From the NCBI GenBank assembly GCA_009602725.1, contig WELB01000027.1, positions 207,324 to 271,323 of the forward strand: a DNA stretch of 64,000 nt, in the 5' to 3' direction. Origin of the DNA: Spirogloea muscicola (taxonomy: Eukaryota > Streptophyta > Zygnematophyceae > Spirogloeales > Spirogloeaceae). Made by a program: the position numbers and the translations under genes. Under the pieces are notes generated by a model. That model was given only the letters and a program-made list of their open reading frames with translations. It did no database searches and was not told the origin of the DNA. Of this stretch, positions 61-63,790 are shown in pieces. Numbering within the stretch: position 1 is the stretch's first letter; each line of letters begins with the position of its first letter.

Positions 61-3000
61 GCCCCTCTGGAAAAGTACAGCCTTGTTAGCAAGCTTTATG
101 TACAGAATGCTGTGGATATCTGTCTCTCCCTGGGCGTGGGCTTACTTGCCAATGCAGCAGCCCTTGGGATTGCATCTACAACGTTCTATGCAGGAGGGTC
201 AGAACCCTCGAATGGCTTTATCAATCAGGTGCACTTGCTAACTTGTAGGTACTGTTCACGGCCATCAGCATGTGAGATTTGTGAGCGCATGTCCTGCCCC
301 TGATTGTGGCAGGTGCTGCAACAGCGTACCATTTTTAATAGGGGCAAGCAACTCACGGGCTTGTCCAGCTTTCAGTGGCTGACTCCTCTAGATCACTTGC
401 CTTGACTGTCGTGACCTTTGGTATGATATCCTACCCAGGTGTGGGGCAGCACCCTTGCCCCCGCATTTGGCGTCGCGCTTGCGACCATCGGCATCATCTC
501 GTACTTGACGCAAGCGCTGTCTGGCCAAGTTGTGTCCAAGGGCTTCATAGGCATGCAGAGCAAGCCTTGGCTACGGCGGAGTCTCGTTCGCACAGCCGGC
601 GTCATTCTTGCCTGCACATCCCTTAACAGCCTTGGCGGCGTGGATCGCATGCTGCAGTTGTGCCAGGTCAGCTTGCGATTCGCACCTCCAGCACTGCAAG
701 TCTTTCGTCATGCAACAAGCAACACAAGTTGTAGCTGATTGCCACTTGGTGAAGCTGACAAAATGCTATTGGACTTCAATGCTTGGTCCTCAGGTGGTTA
801 TGTCTTTGCAGTTGCCGCTCACTCTCATCCCTCTGATCAAAGTCACTTCGTCGAAGGTCTACATGGGGCACTTCCAGATTTCACGCTTGGCAGCGGCAGC
901 GGCCTGGACGGTGGGCATTATTATCTACGTGACAAACATCATTGTTCTCTATGAGAACATAGTCTACGACGATGGATCCTCGCTGTCCGGCGACCTGCGG
1001 TCAAATCAGGTGGTGTGGGCGACCTTGGCAGGCTCAGTGCTAGCCGGAGAGTTTGTGCTGGCAGCCTGGATGGCCGCCTCTCCGCTCCGACACACGGTTG
1101 GGACGCAGCAGCGAGGCTCTCTTGAGAGTAACAGTGAGGATCAAGCGTTTGTCCTGAAGGCGGTCAGCAGGAAAGAGGCTATTCCAGAAAACAAGGAGGA
1201 GTCAGGGCTGCGATTGCGAGGACCAAGGGCCGCCAATGGCCTGCGCGGCGAACAAAGTAGCTTTGACGCACGTCAAGGTGCCGAGCAGCCCTCCACTGAG
1301 GAGTCCCTGGAGCCGGTGGTCCCTAAGGAGGTGCAGGAGGAGCCACTTTTGCTTGTCCCTGCTCTTGATGGCGACATGCAGGCACTTTATGGTGCTTTTG
1401 ATGGCAGCTCTGACAGGTTGGCAGTAGGCGACTCTGAGGTGTCCCAGCACAACGAAGGGTGTGATATAGCGGCAATACCCGAGATGCCTGTGGGGCAACT
1501 TGAGACGGGCACAGCACCTGATCAAGAAGCTCTTCATGGTGACCAAGTACTGGCAGGTTCTGGCAGTATTGGTGTTGGTAGTTCAGAGCTATTGGAGCTG
1601 AAGGAGCCACAGCAGGTGCAGGATGCAGCATCGGCAACTTTGCCAGCCGCAATTGATAGAGGAGCCTTGGACGATGCCTGCGAGCCGAGTTTGCTGGAGG
1701 TAGGAACTCTGGGCCATGGCAAGGACAGGTTGCCTGACGTGCCTTCACGTGCAATTGAGGACCATGTTGATGGCTTACCAGCGGCCATTCAGCAGGCCGA
1801 CAGTGTGGACGCGCAGAAGGCCCCCCTGGTCATCCTTGACAAGCCACAGGAGAAGACGAGGGCCAGTGAAGAACGGCCAAGCATGGGCGTAGACGAGACT
1901 GTGGTGCAGGGAGGGGGCCTGGAGCAGGCCAAGTCGAGGAGCACGGCGCTCCATGAGCCAGGGTACGAGCCGAGCATGAGCCTGCTTGACATTCTAATCT
2001 CAGAGGCGCACAAATATGGGCAGATCAAGGAGTGGGTTTTGAGCTCCGCTCTGAAGAGGCACAACAGAAAGGAGAGCGTGGAACAGGTGGGCGATTTGGA
2101 TGCTGGCCTAGCGGACGCGCTCGAGCTGCATGTCGAGGTACTTGTCCCTGCCGCAGGTGACGAGCAAAAGTACGCCGTGAGCTCTGCTGAAGAAAAGGTC
2201 ACTGCATCGGAGGAGCTTAATCAGTCTCTACCTGTGGAGGTAATGGCTGTGAGCTCTTCGGGAGGGCAATCTCCATCCTCCACAACATCAGAGAGCCAGG
2301 AGCCAAGCGCTGCTTCAGTAGCGGATTCATCGCTTTTTCTTCCAGAGCAAGTGAGCCCCCCCGATGTTAGCAATCACCCGCTGTGTTTGCTGACTGAGAT
2401 CTCATGCATGCTGGATGCCTGCGTCCTTGATCATGAGCTGCCTGAGCAGCCTGAGCAGTGGCTCATGTGAAAGTTGACAACTTATGGCAGGATGTGCCGC
2501 CTGGAGCGAGGAAATCAGACAAGCTTTCAAGCTCGGCTCCAGCTTGGGTTCCAAGTGTACCTTCAGCATCTGCAAACCTTGTGACAAGTGATGAGGTGGA
2601 GCTCCACGACACCGACATGGACGCCGATGTCGACCTGGAGGACAGCGGGAACTGGAGCTCAGCAGTAGCAGGCGTGCTGAGCGAGGATCCTACGTCGCCA
2701 CCAAGGGCGGGCGCGTCTCCAGCACTCATGCAAACAGGCTCTGCAGTCAAGTCCCAGCCCAGCTGGAGCGTGCAACCTGTGGCGGAGCGGGAGAGGTTGG
2801 CACCGGAGGGTGTTTTGGACCCCGGGAGCCTATCGCGCCTCTCGGGGCTGGGACGTGGCGCGCGGCGGCAGCTTGCGGCTGTGCTCGACGAGTTCTGGGG
2901 CATCATTTTTGACTTGCATGGGCAGCCTGTGGCTGCCAATAGTGGCGGCAGCGGCAGCCAGCAGCAGCACCTGGCGCTAGGACGAGAGGGAGGCAACGGC

Positions 3001-5693
3001 AGAGCTGGCGCCCAATTGGTGCCGCAGGACCAGCAGAACTTGGCAGGCATGCCGGGGCTTGCGGCATACAAGCACAGCGGCGAGAAACCTTCAGCGGCAG
3101 GGTTCTCCGGGGCGTTTGGTCGCCAGGCCCCACACACCATCTCGGCGTCTACCCTCCGGCAGTTTGCCAGTGTCTCACGGTTGCCGCACTCTGACGGGCG
3201 TGGACATCACAACCATGCTGCCGGGGAGAATGGCAGCCTCTCGGTGCCCAACCTGTTCAGTTTGCCGGGCTATCCGGGGAGTGGCGATGCCATCGCTGCG
3301 TTGGACCGTGGGCAGGGCGCCGAGGTGCCCACCTACCAGCTGCAGCGACGAGCCACGTCGATAACATCGGCGAGGATGGGTCTGGACTTTGGCAGCCACA
3401 GCTATGGCGATAGCAACCTCAATCTCCATGACGTACAGAGGGATGCACAGCTGTCGTACTCCCGGGGCTCCATGGGGAGTCCCGGGAGTATGGCCATGTA
3501 CGGCAAGTCGGACAATGTCGGGGCCAACTCCAGACAATTTGACAACGACGTGGAGTATGCGATTGAGGCCCGAGCGCGGCGGCAGGTGCAGGAGCTCATG
3601 GAGGCCTACTTGCCATTCTCGAACAGGGCCACACCCATTTCGTTTGTGGTAGAGCCGCCAGCGCGCTCCTACCACCAGGACAAGGGCCGTAGTTCGTTTG
3701 AGAGGGATCGGCTGCAGGGAGATGGCGGCTGGGATGGCGGGGCGCTCGGTGGGCACCTGGGCTACCATGAACGTCTGTCAGAGGCAGACCCCATGCAGAG
3801 CTTCCAGGCTGACAGTGTGAAGGGATCAGCCGAGGGGTACAACCCAGAGATGGAGCAGCAAGCAGCGCATGCGAGGGCTCATGCCCGTCGACAAGCGCCT
3901 GGCTCGCATGACTGGAGCGACGGCGAAGGGGCAGCTCGGCCTGGGTATGGGAACCTCGCTGGGGGCCCCCTGTCCTTTGACGATCTGGCGCCATCCCAGC
4001 AGATGCGCGACGCTTTCTCCCTGCAGCACCCGTCCTCGTCCGCCGAGCTCAAGTCGTTCTGGTCCAAGCAGCCTCACGAAACTCTCTTCGGCCCTACGCA
4101 CGATCAGTTACAAGCATCAATCCTCAAGGTAATGCCGAGGCTATGGACAGAGTGCACATGCAGGCAGGTCAATAGGTTTGCTACTATCATTGGCTGCATA
4201 TGAAGCCTCACGGTATACACAAGGCTTAGCAATAGAGCTGACAGAGCCGCATCGGCTTCAGAAAGCGGCACTATGTGTAGGGTCAGAGTGACTATCTCGG
4301 GCCATTTTTGAAGGGCGGACTCATTGGCGTGTGCCCATCATAGTTCCAGCCTTCGCAAGGCATCAACTCACCCGCCTGCCCTGTGTGTTTCTCAGGGTCA
4401 AGCAACCGGCACGTGGTCACAACCTGCAGCTGCGCAGCATGAGCTTGACAAGCAGGAGAAAGACGAGTTGCTCATGAGGCAACTCCGAAGCTGCCTGCAC
4501 CAGCTACTCAAGATCGAGGGCTCCAGCTGGCTGTTCCGATACGAGTGCGGTGCAGACGAGGACGTGGTTGCGGCAGTAGTTGATCAGGAAAGAAAGCTGT
4601 ACCAGGAGGCTGTACAGCTTGTGGTGAATGGCCAGATGAGCAGCGGGGAGGACAAGGGCCTCACAATTCTTAGCTTTCACAGGAAGCCCAAGGCCAGCAG
4701 CGACAGCATTGGCGGCAAGGATGCGCTCCCCCTTCTCTCGCCTGCTCAGCAGGCCCTTGCCATGGAGGCGGTGCTACTGGCAGCCTCCATGTGGGGCTGC
4801 GGGGAAGCGTGCCTCTGGTCCCCAACGCTCCTGGTCAATTTTGGAGTCTGGTGTGTGCACAGGGTCCTCGAGCTAGCCCAGATGGAGAGCCGGCCTGAGC
4901 TGTGGGGCAAGTACACCTATGTTCTCAACAGGCTGCAGGTAGTTGTCCACATTCGAGATTGCTGCTTAAGTACCTCATCAGTTTATGCAAAGATTGCTGC
5001 ACTATACCACAAATGTTGCAATATGATGCTGGTGCAGGCAGGCAGTCTTAAGTCCACAATGACCTCAGAGGTGCTTGATGTTCGACAATCTCTGCTGGAT
5101 CTCATAGATTCTGTGATCACCTTGGAAGCTCAACCTGAGCACGTGCTGTAGGAGGCGGGCAAGGTCCACGAGCAGTCGGCCAACTTTGACCTTGCTGACT
5201 ACAATCATGGCTTGGCACGTCTGCGATTCTGCAGGGTATCCTGGACCCCGCATTTTCCAAACCACGCACCGTGCCTGCCCTGTGCAAGTGCTTTGGCGAT
5301 AAGGTGGGCCAGGACGCCGTATGTGCCCAGCAGTGGGGATCGCAACACTCGCTGGCCCAGTCCATGGCCGGCGGCTTCCGGCAGGGTGGCGCCACACCAG
5401 CGTCTTCCACGCCATACTCGCGGAGCAAGGGCCCGCCAGCATCCGTGTTCCTGGACATAGTGAAGGAGGTGGAGACGGCGGTGGGTGCCCGGAAGGGCCG
5501 CACGGGCACTGCAGCGGGCGATGTCGCCTTCCCCAAGGGCAAGGAGAACCTGGCATCCGTCTTGAAGCGGTACAAGCGGCGGCTAGGGAACAAGCAGCCC
5601 GGTGGGAGCCTCACGACGATGACAGCGTGTGCCAGTAGCACAGGGCCACCACAGCGCCGCGGGCAGCAGCACCAGTCGTGGGTCCGCATATGA
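61..5693 (+). CDS. EIN2: EIN2-like ethylene signalling protein (NRAMP-type N-domain plus nuclear C-end), 5' partial
   Basis: Exons 61-228, 439-666, 794-2350, 2491-4128, 4396-4938 and 5235-5693; all joins are phase 0, giving about 1530 visible residues. The first three exons encode roughly the last six membrane helices of an NRAMP fold (for example GQVVSKGF...PWLRR, then [14 protein letters not shown]). A very long Ser/Gly/Gln-rich cytosolic region of about 1000 residues follows and resembles nothing specific. The last two exons match the EIN2 C-end closely: [37 protein letters not shown], then [20 protein letters not shown] and the [11 protein letters not shown]. In land plants EIN2 sits in the ER, is held by CTR1 phosphorylation, and its cleaved C-end enters the nucleus to act through EIN3. 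Whether the alga uses it for ethylene is inference. The N-terminal helices with the NRAMP metal-site motifs lie upstream of the window, so metal-site integrity cannot be judged. Confidence 0.93.
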
Positions 5694-6394
5694 CAGCAAC
5701 GATCCAGCAGCGTGCACGAGCCAGCGAGCTGCGGTTGTGCTGCGCAAGCCATCTCCCTCGCCCCTCTGCCACTAGTTTCTGTACACAGCTTTTTGTAAAG
5801 CTTCTTCTTCCTGCCTTGCTCCCCACTGAGGAACAACAGCAGCAGCGTGTGCCCATGTGCTGCCACTCGTACAGTTGGCGACAGCCTCCCACTCGCATTG
5901 GTAGTGGGGCTTCAGGTACGCCACATCCTAGTGCGTCTGTTGCAGGTTGGTGGATGATAGAGTTTGCCCTCTCGGCGGGAAACTGCCGGATTTTGCTCGC
6001 GTTGCTAGCAGCTTGTTCAGACCAGTGGTCGAACTAACAGTCCATCGGGTGCTGCTGCGCACCGGCTTCAGTCCAGCCCCCACAGTAGTGGCACACTGCT
6101 CGGCCGGGGCCATGGCACCCACGCTTCTTCATTGTAGACGCCGTACACATTCTTTTGCTTTTTAAGAAGCTCAGACCCAAACACGCATGCCAGTAGCAAT
6201 GGCAGCCTATCCGAATGCGACATCAGACTTCGCGCTTGCGCTTGCACATTGTAGACAGCCAAATCTGGTAAAAGACTTGGGGGCTGACGCAGTGACCTGG
6301 CAACTCCCCTATGGCAGTCAGTCAGTCAGCCGAGGGTGAGTGGGCCGTGTAAAAACATGGCAAGCCGAGCCCTTGGCAGCCCTTGACCTGTTGA
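5694..6394 (+). other. EIN2 3' untranslated/intergenic stretch
   Basis: This stretch follows the EIN2 stop. It has no recognisable coding exon and reads like 3' UTR running into intergenic DNA. No polyadenylation signal was assigned. Confidence 0.4.
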
Positions 6395-6720
6395 GTGCCC
6401 ACCTGGCCCCTCTGGAGCTCCTGTCATGAACAAGTACAAGGACCACCCGGCGGCCCTTCCCGGTGGCTCGGTGCCTTTGGGTCTTGTGTCCTGCTACCGT
6501 ATGCGCTTGTCTATGTCCCTACAGCGGTCCCAGGCGATTGCTTTGCATCGCCGGGCTGGTCGCGCCCTTGCAGCAGCCTCTGGTTTGCGCAGCGGGGTTG
6601 CTCTTCCTCCCCTCAGCTCATCTGACTTCCTACTGCTGACTCGGGGGTATTGAGGGCGCCCTGTCTGCCTAGCCTACGGCTCCGTCATGAACACCTGTAT
6701 GCATCTGGCTGGCAGTTTAC
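6395..6720 (+). mobile_element. 5'-truncated retroelement copy (C-terminal peptide, variant B)
   Basis: Encodes CYRMRLSMSLQRSQAIALHR...RAGRALAAASG...LLLTRGY and stops at 6651-6653. The same peptide, with substitutions, recurs near 9131-9284, 33900-34080 (-), 44500-44640 (-), 49740-49960 (-), 52380-52600 (-) and 63290-63447. Only the C-terminal end of the element protein is present here. Sequence up to 6809 shows no further element tail that I can recognise. Confidence 0.75.
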
Positions 6721-7786: not shown

Positions 7787-8689
7787 ATGGCTTCCCCATT
7801 CAAGACACATTCCTTCGTCTCTGGGGTGGTATTCCCTTGCTCTTCTCCAGAAGCTCCAACCCACACGGAAAGCCGTCCACTGGTTGTCGCCAGTGGGCAC
7901 GTCGCTTCTTGGGCCAGCCACATGGGCTTCTAACCCCGGCAGTTTGTCAAAGGTGGACCTGATCCTTCAACACAAAGGCAAGGGAGGTCGGATTCCAGCA
8001 GCAGCAGCCATGGTGCAGTAGCAGCAGCAGCAGCAGCAGCCAACATAGCACCAGCAGCTACTACAGCAGCAGCAGCATGAGCACCACGGCCAGCAAGAGC
8101 AGGAATACAGCCAGGCGACTCAGCATCACCGTCATCCTCTGACTCTTCAGGATCCTTCCCATGTCGAGGAGCTCCCCTTTGCCATCCGTTGCCATGCTCG
8201 TCGACGCGTGCCAAATGTCGAGTCGATGGTACGGTCGGCACCACAGGGCTCCATGGAATGACCCTCATCTCGTGTGATATGAAGCAGGTACGCTCCCCCA
8301 CAATGAGCTGAGCCAGTCCTGCACTTTCCTCCAGCCCAATACAGAGGCTACTCTGGCACTGGTGCTACTCTTCGCACAGTCCAGGATTGGAACCAAAGCT
8401 CCCATGGCAATCTCAACAGCACAAAAACAGTCGGCCACAAAACGGCTAACACACCCATGCAAACGACACACAGTCTGTACAGGCTGTTGTTGTTGATATG
8501 GCAAGAATCACCATTCAGAGCATCAAGGACAAGAATCTCAAACTCGGCCTCGAGCACATTGTCAACCTTCACCTCCCAACCGCCGCTGACTTGGACTCCA
8601 GGCATTTGTCAATACATTAGTGCTGCATTGACATTGCAGCCATGTAACTTCGTTACACCTGGTCAGGCCTGGCCAGCTAGGCGCCTAGC
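7787..8689. other. Intergenic stretch with a CAG repeat; no gene recognised
   Basis: Includes a short (CAG)n tract near 8016-8040. Open frames on the minus strand between 7930 and 8605 start with non-ATG codons and show no family resemblance. Confidence 0.4.
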
Positions 8690-9540
8690 TCAGTCACCGT
8701 CCGGCTCAGAAAAGACGGTGACGGTAATATTCCGGGTCCTGGGCATTCGGTTAGCCCTATTCTTGCGCGACGCCGATGGTCAGATCCACACCCGGCGCGC
8801 TGACCTAGTCGCCATCCCGCCCGGAGGCGGTCCGCGTATCATCGCGGATGTGGTGACCGCCGATTGTGTCGACTCCGCTAACCCCTCCAAGTCGGCGTCG
8901 ACCGCTGGGCATGCGGTCGCTCTGGCGGCCCGAGGCAAGGAGCGGAAGTATGCAGACCACCCCCCCGGCGACGAATTCGCGGCCCTTGCCATCGACGTCC
9001 ATGGGGCTTATGGCAGCGGCTGGCTGGATCTCATCCAGCGGCTTGCCCGGCAGGCCATTGAGCGGCGGCCGGGTCTGCCAGGGGGGCTGCCCGGCTTCAA
9101 TGCGGCCGGCTTCCTGGCCCAGGTCTTCCGGATGCGGCTCTCCGTGTCCCTCCAACGCTCCCTCGCTCATGCCGTTCACTCGCGTGCAGGCCGCGCTATC
9201 GCGGCTGCTTCTGGGTCGCGTCTGAATGCTACTTTTCCAGCTTCGAGCTACTCTGACCTGATGTTGCTCACCCGCGGGTATTGAGCTTCCTGTGGTTTCG
9301 TCGTGTCTTCTTGTCTAGATGCCTAGCTGTGTGTTTCTTCGCACTTTGGCTTTGGACTTGGTCCATTCTTTCTGGGCTGGCTTTGCCAGCCCCTCTTCTC
9401 TATGGGCCTGCCTGAACAATGTAATGGCTTGAATTGGCCTCGCTTTAATTTCATGCGCACCGCGCGCCTTCTCTCTCTCTATGGGCGAGCAATTTCATTT
9501 GCTAGCCCCCCTTCTCTGTGGGCGAGCACTTCCTTATTAG
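8690..9540 (+). mobile_element. Retroelement C-terminal copy with nuclease-like module and 3' tail (variant A)
   Basis: The reading frame that stops at 9284 is the longest uninterrupted protein remnant of the family. It carries HTRRADLVAIPPGGGPRIIA, DVVTADCVD, an AARGKERKYADHP segment, then AIDVHGAYGSGWLDL and the shared RMRLSVSLQRS...LLTRGY end. The spaced Asp plus K..KY pattern resembles the restriction-endonuclease-like C-terminal module of some non-LTR retrotransposon proteins; this is inference. After the stop the tail runs through CCATTCTTTCTGGGCTGG and a hairpin of GGGCTGG with CCAGCCC at about 9375-9400. A second tail piece follows to about 9540. Confidence 0.72.
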
Positions 9541-9912: not shown

Positions 9913-10139
9913 CCTCTTAGCCTGTTGTATATTGGGATGTGCTAACCCGTGGGTAGTACACGTCACACTTGCACCTGCTTCTTTCCTAGCCAGCTTAGCA
10001 TCTTTCCCCTAGCATAGGGCTTCCTTTCAAATAGCCCAAATTTTGGCACTATTTTTTGCCTGATGAAAGGCAACGTCTTCACTTAAGCCATCGTTCCATT
10101 GCATGCGCTACGCGCGCCCTCCTATTCTTACCAGCTTAC

Positions 10140-10146
10140 CAGCGGC

Positions 10147-10185
<39 letters not shown>

Positions 10186-13100
10186 GCGGCGGCGGCTACT
10201 CGCCGTTTGCAACGCCCGACCAGCTGCAGCTGGAGCTGCAGCAGCTCGCGACGACTGGCGGCGCCGTCTCTTCCTCGTCCTCCGCCAGCTACCTCGCCTC
10301 TGCCGTCCCCCCGCAGCCGTCGGCGTCTCAGCCGCCACCGGACGTCCTCGCTCAGCTGCAGAGCATGCAGGCCACGCCGCACAAGCCGCTGCTGCCGCCG
10401 CAGCAGCCGCAGTCGCAGCGCTACCAGCCGCAGCCGCAGCCGCCATTGTACCTCGGCGGACACCCGTCGCAGTATGACACTGCGGCGGCTGCAGCAGCGG
10501 CATTGCAGCAGCAGCACCAGCAGTTCCTGCACCAGCAGGCGGCGGTGTACCAGCTGCCGCCGGCTTCGTCGCCGCCACGGCTGCCCCCCGTGCGCACCGG
10601 CAAGGCGCCATCGCCGCCGCCGCAGCAGCAGCTGCAGCAGCAGCGGTCTCTGCCCCGGCAGCAGCCGAAGCGGTCGCCGTACACGTCGCCGTCGCAGTCG
10701 CCCCCCATCTCGCCGCAGGTGCAGGCCATGCAGCGGCTCGCCATCAATGGGGGCGACCTGCCGGCTGCGCCGCAGCACTATGGCCTCGTGGCCAGCGCCA
10801 GCAACGGCGGCAGGGCTGCCGGCAGCTACAGCCCGAACTCGCAACCAAAGCAGCAAGCGCCAGGGAGGGGCGGCAGCGACGGCGAGCCGGCACTGAAGAT
10901 ACCGCCGCTGCCGGACCTGGAGGGCCTGCCCGGCGCCGCCGCTGGCGGCGGCGCCGCCGGCGGTGGCGCGCTGGACGGCGGCGGCCCTGTGCGGCCCGTC
11001 AGCTCGCAGCTGGAGCAGCTGCTCATCAACTGCGCGGAAGCCATCGACCGCGCCGACCTCACCGCCGCGCACAGCATCATGCAGGCGCTCAACTCCATGG
11101 TCTCCCCGCACGGCACCGCCTCCCAGCGCATGGCCTACTACTTCCTTGAGGGCCTCGCCGCGCGCATCGTCGGCACCGGTGCCGCCATCTATCAGGTGCC
11201 TGCGCGTCGCCACAGATGCCGCTGCCTCTGCGCTGCCACTGCAAGTCCTTCTCACCATTGATGGCTGGCTCAGCTTCCCGCCATAGAGGTGTCAGGTAGA
11301 ACATGCTACTTGCTCCGTTGGCTTGTGAGCGTGTCATATACTGACAGTCCACGTGCTGTGAATGTCCAGCCCGCGAAGCACATTCAGCTGATGCTGACTC
11401 TCTGCCCTTGCCCGCCACTTGCAGGCTCTGCAGAGCAACGCCGGCCAGGAGCCAGGGCCAGCGAGCAAGGACATGCTGCAGGCGCTGCTGGCCTTCTTGG
11501 AGGCCTGTCCGTATGCCAACTTTGGCCACGTGGCTGCCAACGGCGCGATCCTGGAGGTGTTCGAGAATGAGCCGCGAGTGCACATTGTCGACTTTGGCAT
11601 CACGCATGGCACGCAGTGGCCGACGCTCATCGAGGCGCTCGCCATGCGGCCGGGCGGGCCGCCCAACCTGCGCATCACAGGCATTGATGCGCCCCTCACT
11701 GGTCTAAAGCCCTCCAGCCTCCAGGTGCGCCCCGGTCGTGCATGCCCCTGCACCTCTGATGCTAAGTCAGTGATATCACTACCCATTCTGTAATGATAAT
11801 CTGGAAAATGAGACGAGAAGGTTGTAAGTCACACAAGGCAATATATAAGCTGGGCGCTCCGTTGACGTTGTTGTTAGCCATCAGCTAACGCCCCAATTGC
11901 TCTGGATCTGCACTCGTATTTTGCGCTCTGCAGGAGACAGGCCGGCGGCTGACGAGCTTCGCAAAGCTGATGGGCGTGCCATTTGAGTTCTGCCCGATCA
12001 CCGAGCACCTTGACAGCCTGCAATTGTCGCAGTTCGAGCTGCGCAAAAGCGAGGTGCTGGCCGTGAACTGCATGCTGCGCCTGCACCAGCTGAATCCGGG
12101 GGAGACGTCCAGCCACAGCAGCCCGCGCAACAATGTGCTGAAGCTTATCCGCGCCATGGAGCCACGCATCGTGACCCTCGTTGAGCAGGTGCTTGCCCGT
12201 CCTCTATCTACATTGGCAACTTTAGATGGTTTTGACGTTGCCAAGGTGCGGCTCATATCATACAAAGTGCATACAAGCTGGTATGGTGGCTTTCTACTAC
12301 TTAGATCCTACACCTGAAGCCCAAGTTATCATCCTAAAATACTAGAATTGTGAGCCCTTATTCTAGGTACTTCCTTGAATCCTGCAGCATGCATTCGACA
12401 AGTTCATGTGTTGGTGTCTTTGTCAGTTGTTGCATTAGTGGAGCTTGTCAGGGCTGCCTTTGAGGTCAGCAGAGGCGAGTGAAGGAAATCTGGCGATGTG
12501 ACGTCGAGGCATGGGCTGCCTCTGAGCACCTCCCTCTGTCCACAATATTAAGGACTCAGTTACTGAATATTTGGATGCAATGCTCGCTTCTGCTGAACCG
12601 TTGCTATGGCTTGTTCCTGTGCCACGTGTGGCACGCAGCACTCAGATGACAACCTGCCATATTTCACCTCGAGATTCCGCGAGGCACTGCACTACTTCTC
12701 AGCGCTCTTCGACAGCCTGGACGTATCGCTGCCATGGCACAGCACCGAGCGGGTGCTCATTGAGGAGCGCGTCCTCGGCCGCAAAATCGTTAACATTGTC
12801 GCGTGCGAGGGTGCTGAGCGCATCGAGCGCCACGAGCGTCACCAGAAGTGGCAGGTGTGTTTCACTGAGCACTTTGAACATCTCTGCCTGTCACTCTGCT
12901 GTGCAGTGGCTGTGTGGAGTTACCAGGCAATCCAACTTGCTCTGCGTCTCGTTTTGACTGATCTATTGGTTGAAGGATTTCACTCTGGTGTGAGCCTCTC
13001 CGTCAGCTGGACATCAGCCATCAGTCGTGGGAAGCATCCCTGTTAAGCGGCACGCTCTCAGTTCATTGACATTACCCCTGTGTTTGGCAGTACCGCATGC

Positions 13101-49549: not shown

Positions 49550-50300
49550 AAGAAGAAGAAACAGCTCTTCCAATGTAAAGAGAAAAGCGCGGCCGAATTG
49601 ACTGGTGGCTGGGAGAAGGCAGCCCAAAAGGAATGGACAAGGTCAAGAGGAGCCGAATGGCGCAGAAAGCAGGGGACTAAGTGCTAAGACGACAAGGAGG
49701 CTCTCAGTACTGTAACCTCTAGTCAGCAAGTGCAGGTCAGAATAGCTAGAGGGCGGGAAGACGTCGCCCTGACGAAACCCGGAGGCAGCCGCCAGGGCGC
49801 GGCCTGCACGTAGGTGGACGGCAAACGCAAGAGACCGCTGGAGGGAGACGGCAAGGCGCATCCTGAACACCTGTGCGAGGGACCCGGCGACGTTGAAGCC
49901 AGGCTGCTCGCCGTGCTGCCCGTGGCGGCGGGCCACCGCACGGCGAGCAAGGCGGTGGAGAAGGTCGAGCCATTTGGTCCCAAAAGCAGTGGCTGTGAAA
50001 CTCCAGCCCAAAGCAATGTACAAAGAGAAGTAGCTCTCCAGAGGTCAATAGAGGGGAAAGGCTCTTCAATAGATGTTGATGGCTGGAGTTGGCCAGCCCC
50101 ACGAAAGCTCTCCCAGCCACCCGTCAATCTGGCCGCGCTTGCTTCTTCCAATGTAAGGCGATGGCTGTGAGAGGCCAGCCCAAAGGAACGTGCAGGGTCT
50201 GAAAATGCCGGAAGGCGCAAAAGCTCGTAACTACTATCCGTGACTTCTGCAAGTGGACGCTCAATGACCCCAGTCAGCAAGTGCAGATGAGAATTACTAG
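49550..50300 (-). mobile_element. Retroelement copy (variant A) plus stacked tails, minus strand
   Basis: The minus-strand frame reads GTKWLDLLHRLARRAVARRH, FNVAGSLAQVFRMRLAVSLQ, RAGRALAAASGFRQG and SYSDLHLLTRGY at about 49709-49985, where the usual stop is displaced by a small insertion. Outward lie tails at about 49590-49650 (GGTGGCTGGGAGAAGGCAGCC), 49990-50010, 50080-50100 and 50158-50180. Another stop-region remnant is at about 50268-50295. Several insertions share nearly the same site. Confidence 0.7.
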
Positions 50301-62499: not shown

Positions 62500-63447
62500 G
62501 TTCAGAGTTCTTTGAGAGTTCTTCGCCCTCGCTGCTGGGCCTCCCCCCGCCCTGCCTGCTGGGCCTCCCCCCGCCCTGCCTGCTGGGCGTGCTGCAGTGC
62601 GAGTGTGGGGAGCGGTCAACGGACCCGGCGGAGCTGGCGGCGCACATCCTCCGCTGCGCCACTGGAGGTGAACGTACAGCGGCTCACGATCTTCTGCGCG
62701 ATGCCATGTTCGGCATCTTTCAGGAGGCTGGCTACACGGTCGCAATGGAGAACGCCTCCGTCATGCCCATCCTCCAGAAGAAAGTGCTCGCCCATTGAGA
62801 ATAGGGGCTGGAACAACCAGCCCGAAAAAGAATGAACAGAGTACGAGAAGGGGGCCAGGGGAAGCGCTAAGTAACAGAAACAAAGCTGCTACGAGACACT
62901 CAGTAACCCCTGCTAAGCAGCCGCAGATCAGAGATGCTGGGCTAGAGGGCCGACCGACTCCATACGCGCCGTGTCGACCTGGTGGCGTCCGCCGGGCGGC
63001 GGCGCGCGCATCATCGCCGACGTCGTCACCACCGATGTGGTCGACCGCTCCAACCCGGGGCTCTCTGCCTCGCGGGCTGGCCATGCTTCGGCGAGGGCTG
63101 CTCGCAGCAAGGCGGCCAAGCACGCCGACCACCCGGCTGCAGATGAATTAATTCCCCTGGCAGTGGACGTGCACGGGACTCTCGGGTCCCAGTGGCTCGA
63201 CCTGCTGGCCAGGCTCGCGCGGCGTGCTGTATCCCGCCGGCGCGGCGAACCGGCTGACTTTAATGCAGCTGGCTCGTGGGCTCAGGTATACCGGATGAGA
63301 TTGTCAGTGTCCCTCCAGCGGTCCATGGCCCACGCTCTGCATCTGCGTGCTGGCCGTGCTCTTGCTGCGGCCTCTGGCTTTCGTCAGGGTGATAGCTTCC
63401 CGGCAGCTAGTCTGTCGGATCTGAGGCTCCTCACTCGTAATTACTGA
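62500..63447 (+). mobile_element. Longest retroelement C-terminal remnant, interrupted by a nested inverted copy
   Basis: The left part (62590-62775) encodes a C/H-rich stretch: QCECGERSTDPAELAAHILR, CATGGERTAAHDLLRDAMFG and IFQEAGYTVAMENASVMP. This resembles the zinc-binding segment that precedes the nuclease-like module in many non-LTR element proteins. At 62776-62935 a reverse-complement tail plus stop region is inserted (GGGGCTGGAACAACCAGCCC; CTCAGTAACCCCTGCTAAGC). The protein then resumes as ADRLHTRRVDLVA, shifts frame near 62990, and continues GGGARIIADVVTTDVVDRSN, AARSKAAKHADHP, DVHGTLGSQWLDLLARLARR, YRMRLSVSLQRSMAHALHLR and LLTRNY-stop. Confidence 0.72.
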
Positions 63448-63479
63448 GTGATCCATCCATCCTCCCCCTGTTTTTCCCA

Positions 63480-63790
63480 TCGCATCCTCAGGCCCATTTG
63501 TAGCTGCTCAACGCTCTTAGGCCCCTTCGAACCTTTGTCAATTCTTTTGGGCTGGCTTTTCGCAGCCCTTGCCCCCATTGGGAGTACCACTTCTCGCTGC
63601 TGCCTCTGGCTCTGGCCAGGGGACCCACTTCCAGGAGCCTAGCATCTCTGATCTGCGGCTGCTTAGCAGGGGTTACTGCGTCTTTCGCAGCTGCTTTGTT
63701 TCTCTTTGTGCTCGCCTTTCTTAGCCCTTCTTTGAGAGTACATTTGTCAATGTGCTTACCTTTGTACTTGGCCACACATGGCCTCCCCAT
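63480..63790 (+). mobile_element. Additional plus-oriented retroelement ends
   Basis: A tail at about 63525-63590 (AATTCTTTTGGGCTGGCTTT, then TCGCAGCCC) is followed by another degenerate C-terminus whose DLRLLSRGY-stop-like sequence is at about 63640-63680. Confidence 0.6.

Follow-up and report, generated by a model that had tools for sequence, protein, structure and literature searches.

A very probably complete EIN2 gene in the zygnematophyte alga Spirogloea muscicola, its two copies and the selection between them

The 64,000-nucleotide stretch of Spirogloea muscicola DNA analyzed here (the window, C27:207324-271323; the genome assembly comprises 471 contigs with 153 Mb in total) encodes close to its beginning a protein end that resembles the C-end of EIN2. 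A first-pass annotation had described positions 4396-5693 as a near-complete, land-plant-type EIN2 C-end in an alga, preceded by about 1000 residues diverged beyond recognition, and had taken this pattern to suggest purifying selection on nuclear C-end function itself, not only on the Nramp-like membrane part. This raises two questions: whether the C-end belongs to a complete EIN2 gene, and whether it is under stronger constraint than the remainder of the protein.

Gene structure and family assignment

The EIN2 gene was modelled with ten exons and begins upstream of the window; positions 4396-5693 contain the final two of these coding exons. The search for upstream exons that the first-pass annotation had proposed was successful: exons 1-4 were found on the same contig, 5' of the window, at C27:205669-205878, 206095-206181, 206478-206591 and 206888-207100. 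The ten exons recur in another EIN2 copy, on contig C28 (1,734 codons), and the exon model is based on the sequence and on comparison with that copy; the exon-8 donor of C27 and the start codon are assumed. The gene parts within the window are as follows.

61..228, + strand: EIN2 exon 5 (Nramp part), with AG/GT borders and an open frame in C27 and C28
439..666, + strand: EIN2 exon 6 (Nramp part), matching PF01566 with E 1.1e-7 when used alone
794..2350, + strand: EIN2 exon 7 (last stretch of the Nramp part, then the bulk of linker 1), gene model in C27 and C28
2491..4128, + strand: EIN2 exon 8 (remainder of linker 1, middle block, linker 2 and start of the conserved C-end), C27 donor assumed
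2815..2940, + strand: EIN2 middle block of 42 residues, ending in GQPVAAN, 60.1 bits against the reconstructed Arabidopsis EIN2
4396..4938, + strand: EIN2 exon 9 (C-end), dN/dS 0.20
5235..5693, + strand: EIN2 exon 10 (C-end, including the stop codon), dN/dS 0.06
5490..5549, + strand: 20-residue C-end block, with a single occurrence among the six frames
5562..5585, + strand: NLS-like motif LKRYKRRL, occurring once in six frames and identical in C28

In the C27 model, all ten exons are multiples of three, all nine introns are of the GT-AG type, and the protein comprises 1,738 codons plus stop. As modelled, the reading frame is open in both C27 and C28, with no stop or frame break. Exons 9 and 10 are separated by a 296-base GT-AG intron (4939-5234), so that 4396-5693 is not the single reading frame for which it had been taken; together they comprise 1,002 bases, i.e. 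334 codons with the stop counted, in line with the earlier figure of about 330. Both conserved blocks that had been named are present; translating the window in all six frames yields each of them a single time, and the 11-residue motif is unchanged in C28. The EIN2-like C-end begins before exon 9, in the tail of exon 8 (residues 1337-1405). In the exon-8 donor region (4105-4131), C28 reads CAG/GTACAAG, and this site is altered in C27, where an in-frame GT follows 21 bases on. This next in-frame GT was taken as the C27 donor, which gives seven residues more.

The N-terminal 452 residues match the Nramp family (PF01566) with E 1.6e-62 over profile positions 1-356 of 357. For comparison with Arabidopsis EIN2 (AT5G03280), we used a reconstructed reference sequence, and the score of each segment was set against 40 shuffles. 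The Nramp part scored 169 bits (shuffle maximum 23.5), the middle block (residues 968-1009) 60.1 bits (20.0), the exon-8 tail 32.7 bits (23.1), and exons 9 and 10 together 208 bits (21.2). Only linker 1 (residues 443-967; 18.9 bits, shuffle maximum 28.9) and linker 2 (residues 1010-1336; 20.8 bits, shuffle maximum 26.2) remained below, whereas the other four of the six segments exceeded every shuffle. Thus, an EIN2 C-end is indeed encoded in this alga. The statement that the preceding 1000 residues are unrecognizable holds for the two linkers and fails for the Nramp part and the middle block. The C-end score of 208 bits against a best shuffle of 21.2 and the full Nramp profile upstream rule out that the C-end likeness consists of chance motifs within an unrelated coding sequence, a reading to which we assign a negligible probability.

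In BLASTP against the reconstructed Arabidopsis protein, the two agree at 133 of 454 positions of the Nramp-like part. For the middle block the figure is 23 of 33, and for the C-end, whose last block is nearly identical, 156 of 396. The algal protein is longer (1,738 versus 1,294 residues) and has an insertion in exon 9. We take S645 and S924 to be the CTR1 phosphorylation sites of Arabidopsis EIN2. By eye, the algal GSLSRL and one 10-residue stretch resemble the surroundings of these sites, although the exact sites align unclearly, and the S645-bearing sequence immediately before GSLSRL in Arabidopsis is not preserved. Searched singly against Pfam, exons 8, 9 and 10 gave nothing above the curated cut-off: exon 9 had no match, and two weak matches of the others had E values of 0.08 and 0.033. 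A PDB search with the C-end returned a single match, the spike protein 6q5u (E 0.38), which we regard as chance.

The Nramp part differs from metal transporters. The marks of a metal-transporting Nramp protein are, as we assume, DPGN in TM1 and MPH in TM6. EIN2 carries NPAA (SPAA in C28) and LPQN in place of DPGN and MPHN, while the Nramp loci on C6, C24 and C186 of the same genome carry both DPGN and MPHN. Since these canonical motifs are gone, metal transport has probably been lost from the EIN2 Nramp part. Further Nramp pieces lie on C60, where two of four exon pieces contain stops and weaker pieces occur besides; they match EIN2 no better than ordinary Nramp loci do.

The conserved C-end and the Nramp-like part are thus joined in a single modelled gene of ten in-frame exons in both C27 and C28. 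The alternative would be two adjoining genes, a divergent Nramp gene followed by a separate C-end gene devoid of a membrane part. It has a precedent in the Spirogyra EIN2 transcript, which is said to lack the TM part in the available text of PMC12290401, and the one-gene model is built solely from genomic sequence. Yet the ten exons form one open chain in both copies, and two exons span the supposed border: exon 7 joins the Nramp end to linker 1, and exon 8 joins the middle block to the start of the C-end. On the predicted in-frame chain we reject the two-gene reading, which appears very unlikely. We conclude that the gene is very probably a complete and ordinary zygnematophyte EIN2 orthologue, and the same grade applies to its identity with SM000027S09592. 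The latter is labelled EIN2 of S. muscicola in a published tree (legend of Fig. 4A, PMC12290401); it belongs to the same family and bears the scaffold number 27, as does C27, the match being one of name and scaffold number.

Gene copies and selection between them

The C27 and C28 proteins are identical in 91.7% of residues overall; the C28 copy showed 98% identity over a 125-residue query from the last exon and 94% over exon 9. A genome triplication has been reported for S. muscicola, as stated in the accessible parts of PMC7994812 and PMC11712027, and the gene families seen here in threes are consistent with it. In a 30 kb stretch of C180, collinearity with C27 was seen to either side of the EIN2 place; according to which match is chosen, the distance between the innermost collinear matches is 15.1-15.3 kb on C27 and 14.6-15.2 kb on C180. 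At the expected position of a third EIN2 copy, C180:64784-79192 is a run of 14,409 N, which could reflect a gap in the assembly or withheld sequence. Two EIN2 copies were therefore seen, and the place of a possible third is covered by N.

About 4-6 kb after EIN2, the window contains a gene for a GRAS-family transcription factor (10035-11261 and 11398-11793; PF03514, E 4.1e-14 and 1.2e-33), which is also present on C28 and C180 with 99-100% protein identity over 91-92 residues. A chlorophyte as the source of the DNA was rejected: the GRAS gene, which points to Zygnematophyceae, the scaffold number and the families in threes indicate a zygnematophyte. Between EIN2 and the GRAS gene, ORFs 6387-6653 and 8307-9284 share their ending, as judged by eye, and the latter matches regions at about 49600-49990 and 62955-63570 of the window in tblastx. 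This repeated coding-like element, which reached no Pfam family at its cut-off, is perhaps a decayed retroelement. No tRNA was detected in the 64,000-nucleotide window.

The two copies allowed us to compare constraint along the protein. Values of dN/dS were calculated by the Nei-Gojobori method for C27 versus C28 with 95% bootstrap intervals, excluding gap-facing codons (1,726 of 1,738 codons used); they describe the recent divergence of two copies within one genome and not the time since the land-plant split. For the whole gene, dN/dS was 0.275 (0.220-0.344). The Nramp part gave 0.181 (0.105-0.293), linker 1 0.463 (0.312-0.648) and linker 2, here defined as residues 1010-1405, 0.284 (0.177-0.441). 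In the 42 codons of the middle block there were eight synonymous and no non-synonymous changes (dN/dS 0). Exons 9 and 10 together gave 0.132 (0.065-0.251), with 0.200 (0.073-0.447) for exon 9 and 0.060 (0-0.184) for exon 10.

Segments were contrasted by two-sided Fisher tests on rounded non-synonymous and synonymous counts, with p values uncorrected for multiple tests. For exons 9 and 10, omega was below 1 with p = 9e-11, and the purifying selection proposed for the C-end is thereby supported between the copies. The contrast of these exons with linker 1 gave p = 0.0005 and that with linker 2 p = 0.058. The constraint on exons 9 and 10 could not be distinguished from that on the Nramp part (p = 0.68), and for exon 10 versus the Nramp part p was 0.10. 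The picture of a conserved C-end set against an unrecognizable rest was therefore not upheld: the Nramp part is not distinguishable from the C-end in constraint, and the middle block has no amino-acid change. We conclude that the C-end is under purifying selection which is not detectably stronger than that on the membrane part. Among the open-licence papers listed in the literature searches, none evidently compared S. muscicola EIN2 copies by dN/dS.

The same data bear on whether this is a decaying or non-functional EIN2 copy whose C-end likeness is a relic. In C27 the exon-8 donor departs from its C28 form, and the linkers evolve fast, as such decay would lead one to expect; against this, neither the C27 nor the C28 model contains a stop or frame break, and dN/dS is well below 1 in all segments tested. 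There is accordingly little chance that the copy is decaying, and we retain the reading of an intact gene.

Other pathway loci and published context

Homologues of CTR1 and EIN3, which the first-pass annotation had suggested looking for, are both present in the genome. A profile search for the EIN3 DNA-binding domain gave seven exon matches on three contigs, in agreement with the three EIN3/EIL proteins reported for S. muscicola in the part of PMC9136324 concerned. The EDR1/CTR1 domain gave 21 matches on six contigs, which we read as nine gene-like places; at the one of the nine that was examined, an EDR1-type place on C7, the kinase motifs HCDLK, DFG and EWMAPE lie downstream. ETR1_N gave nine matches, also on six contigs. 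In three of the six, the ETR1_N reading frames contain FGAFIVLCGATH, which we take to include the Cys and His important in ETR1 for copper and ethylene binding; in the other three, FGAFIVLCGATH was not found in the open frame read. An RTE1 search of the genome gave no match, but was uninformative since it gave none in control genomes either.

According to the available text of PMC10518463, EIN2 homologues occur in Zygnematophyceae and Chara and are apparently missing from chlorophytes and from the streptophyte lineages that branched off first; their occurrence in Zygnematophyceae and Chara is also in print in PMC12290401, as far as its text was available. EIN2 in Zygnematophyceae is thus already known, and the gene is an ordinary one of the published kind. 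The designation "land-plant-type in an alga" is less remarkable than it may seem, given that the host is a zygnematophyte and that such genes are in print. By the description in the accessible text of PMC12290401, EIN2 of Chara braunii (CHBRA353g00160) and EIN2A and EIN2B of Physcomitrium likewise combine a TM part with a C-end bearing LKRYKRRL, which is named there as a putative NLS. Experiments described in the same portion of that paper (PMC12290401) concern the function of these parts: an ein2 double mutant of moss regained its ABA response with Chara EIN2 and also with the Chara form lacking the TM part, a PpEIN2A construct without the last 80 residues failed in the moss ABA response, and replacement of two Arg of LKRYKRRL in moss did not abolish it.

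These data, with the present gene, suggest how the algal protein might work. As modelled, EIN2 begins with an Nramp-like membrane part and ends in a conserved C-end that carries an NLS-like motif; the linker between them evolves fast except for its short conserved middle block. By analogy with Arabidopsis and moss, the protein would reside in the ER membrane under the control of ETR receptors and a CTR1-type kinase, with the C-end relaying the signal to EIN3, to B3-Raf/ABA signalling, or to both. The moss NLS result may, again by analogy, leave room for a role of the C-end outside the nucleus. A further proposal, which we consider unlikely, is that in this alga the whole C-end including the NLS-like motif has been retained because of a more ancient function in osmostress, exerted at the ER together with ETR receptors and B3-Raf kinases, and that nuclear EIN3 signalling was added or became dominant later, in land plants.

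To summarize, the two-copy dN/dS profile indicates that selection holds both ends of EIN2 and its 42-residue middle block. The accepted picture, in which assembly of the pathway preceded land plants (PMC10518463, in its available text), is unchanged by this result. Since, in the text available from PMC12290401, Mesotaenium is said to be without EIN2 and Spirogyra EIN2 to be without its TM part, a full-length EIN2 together with the rest of the pathway in one zygnematophyte genome is of some use.
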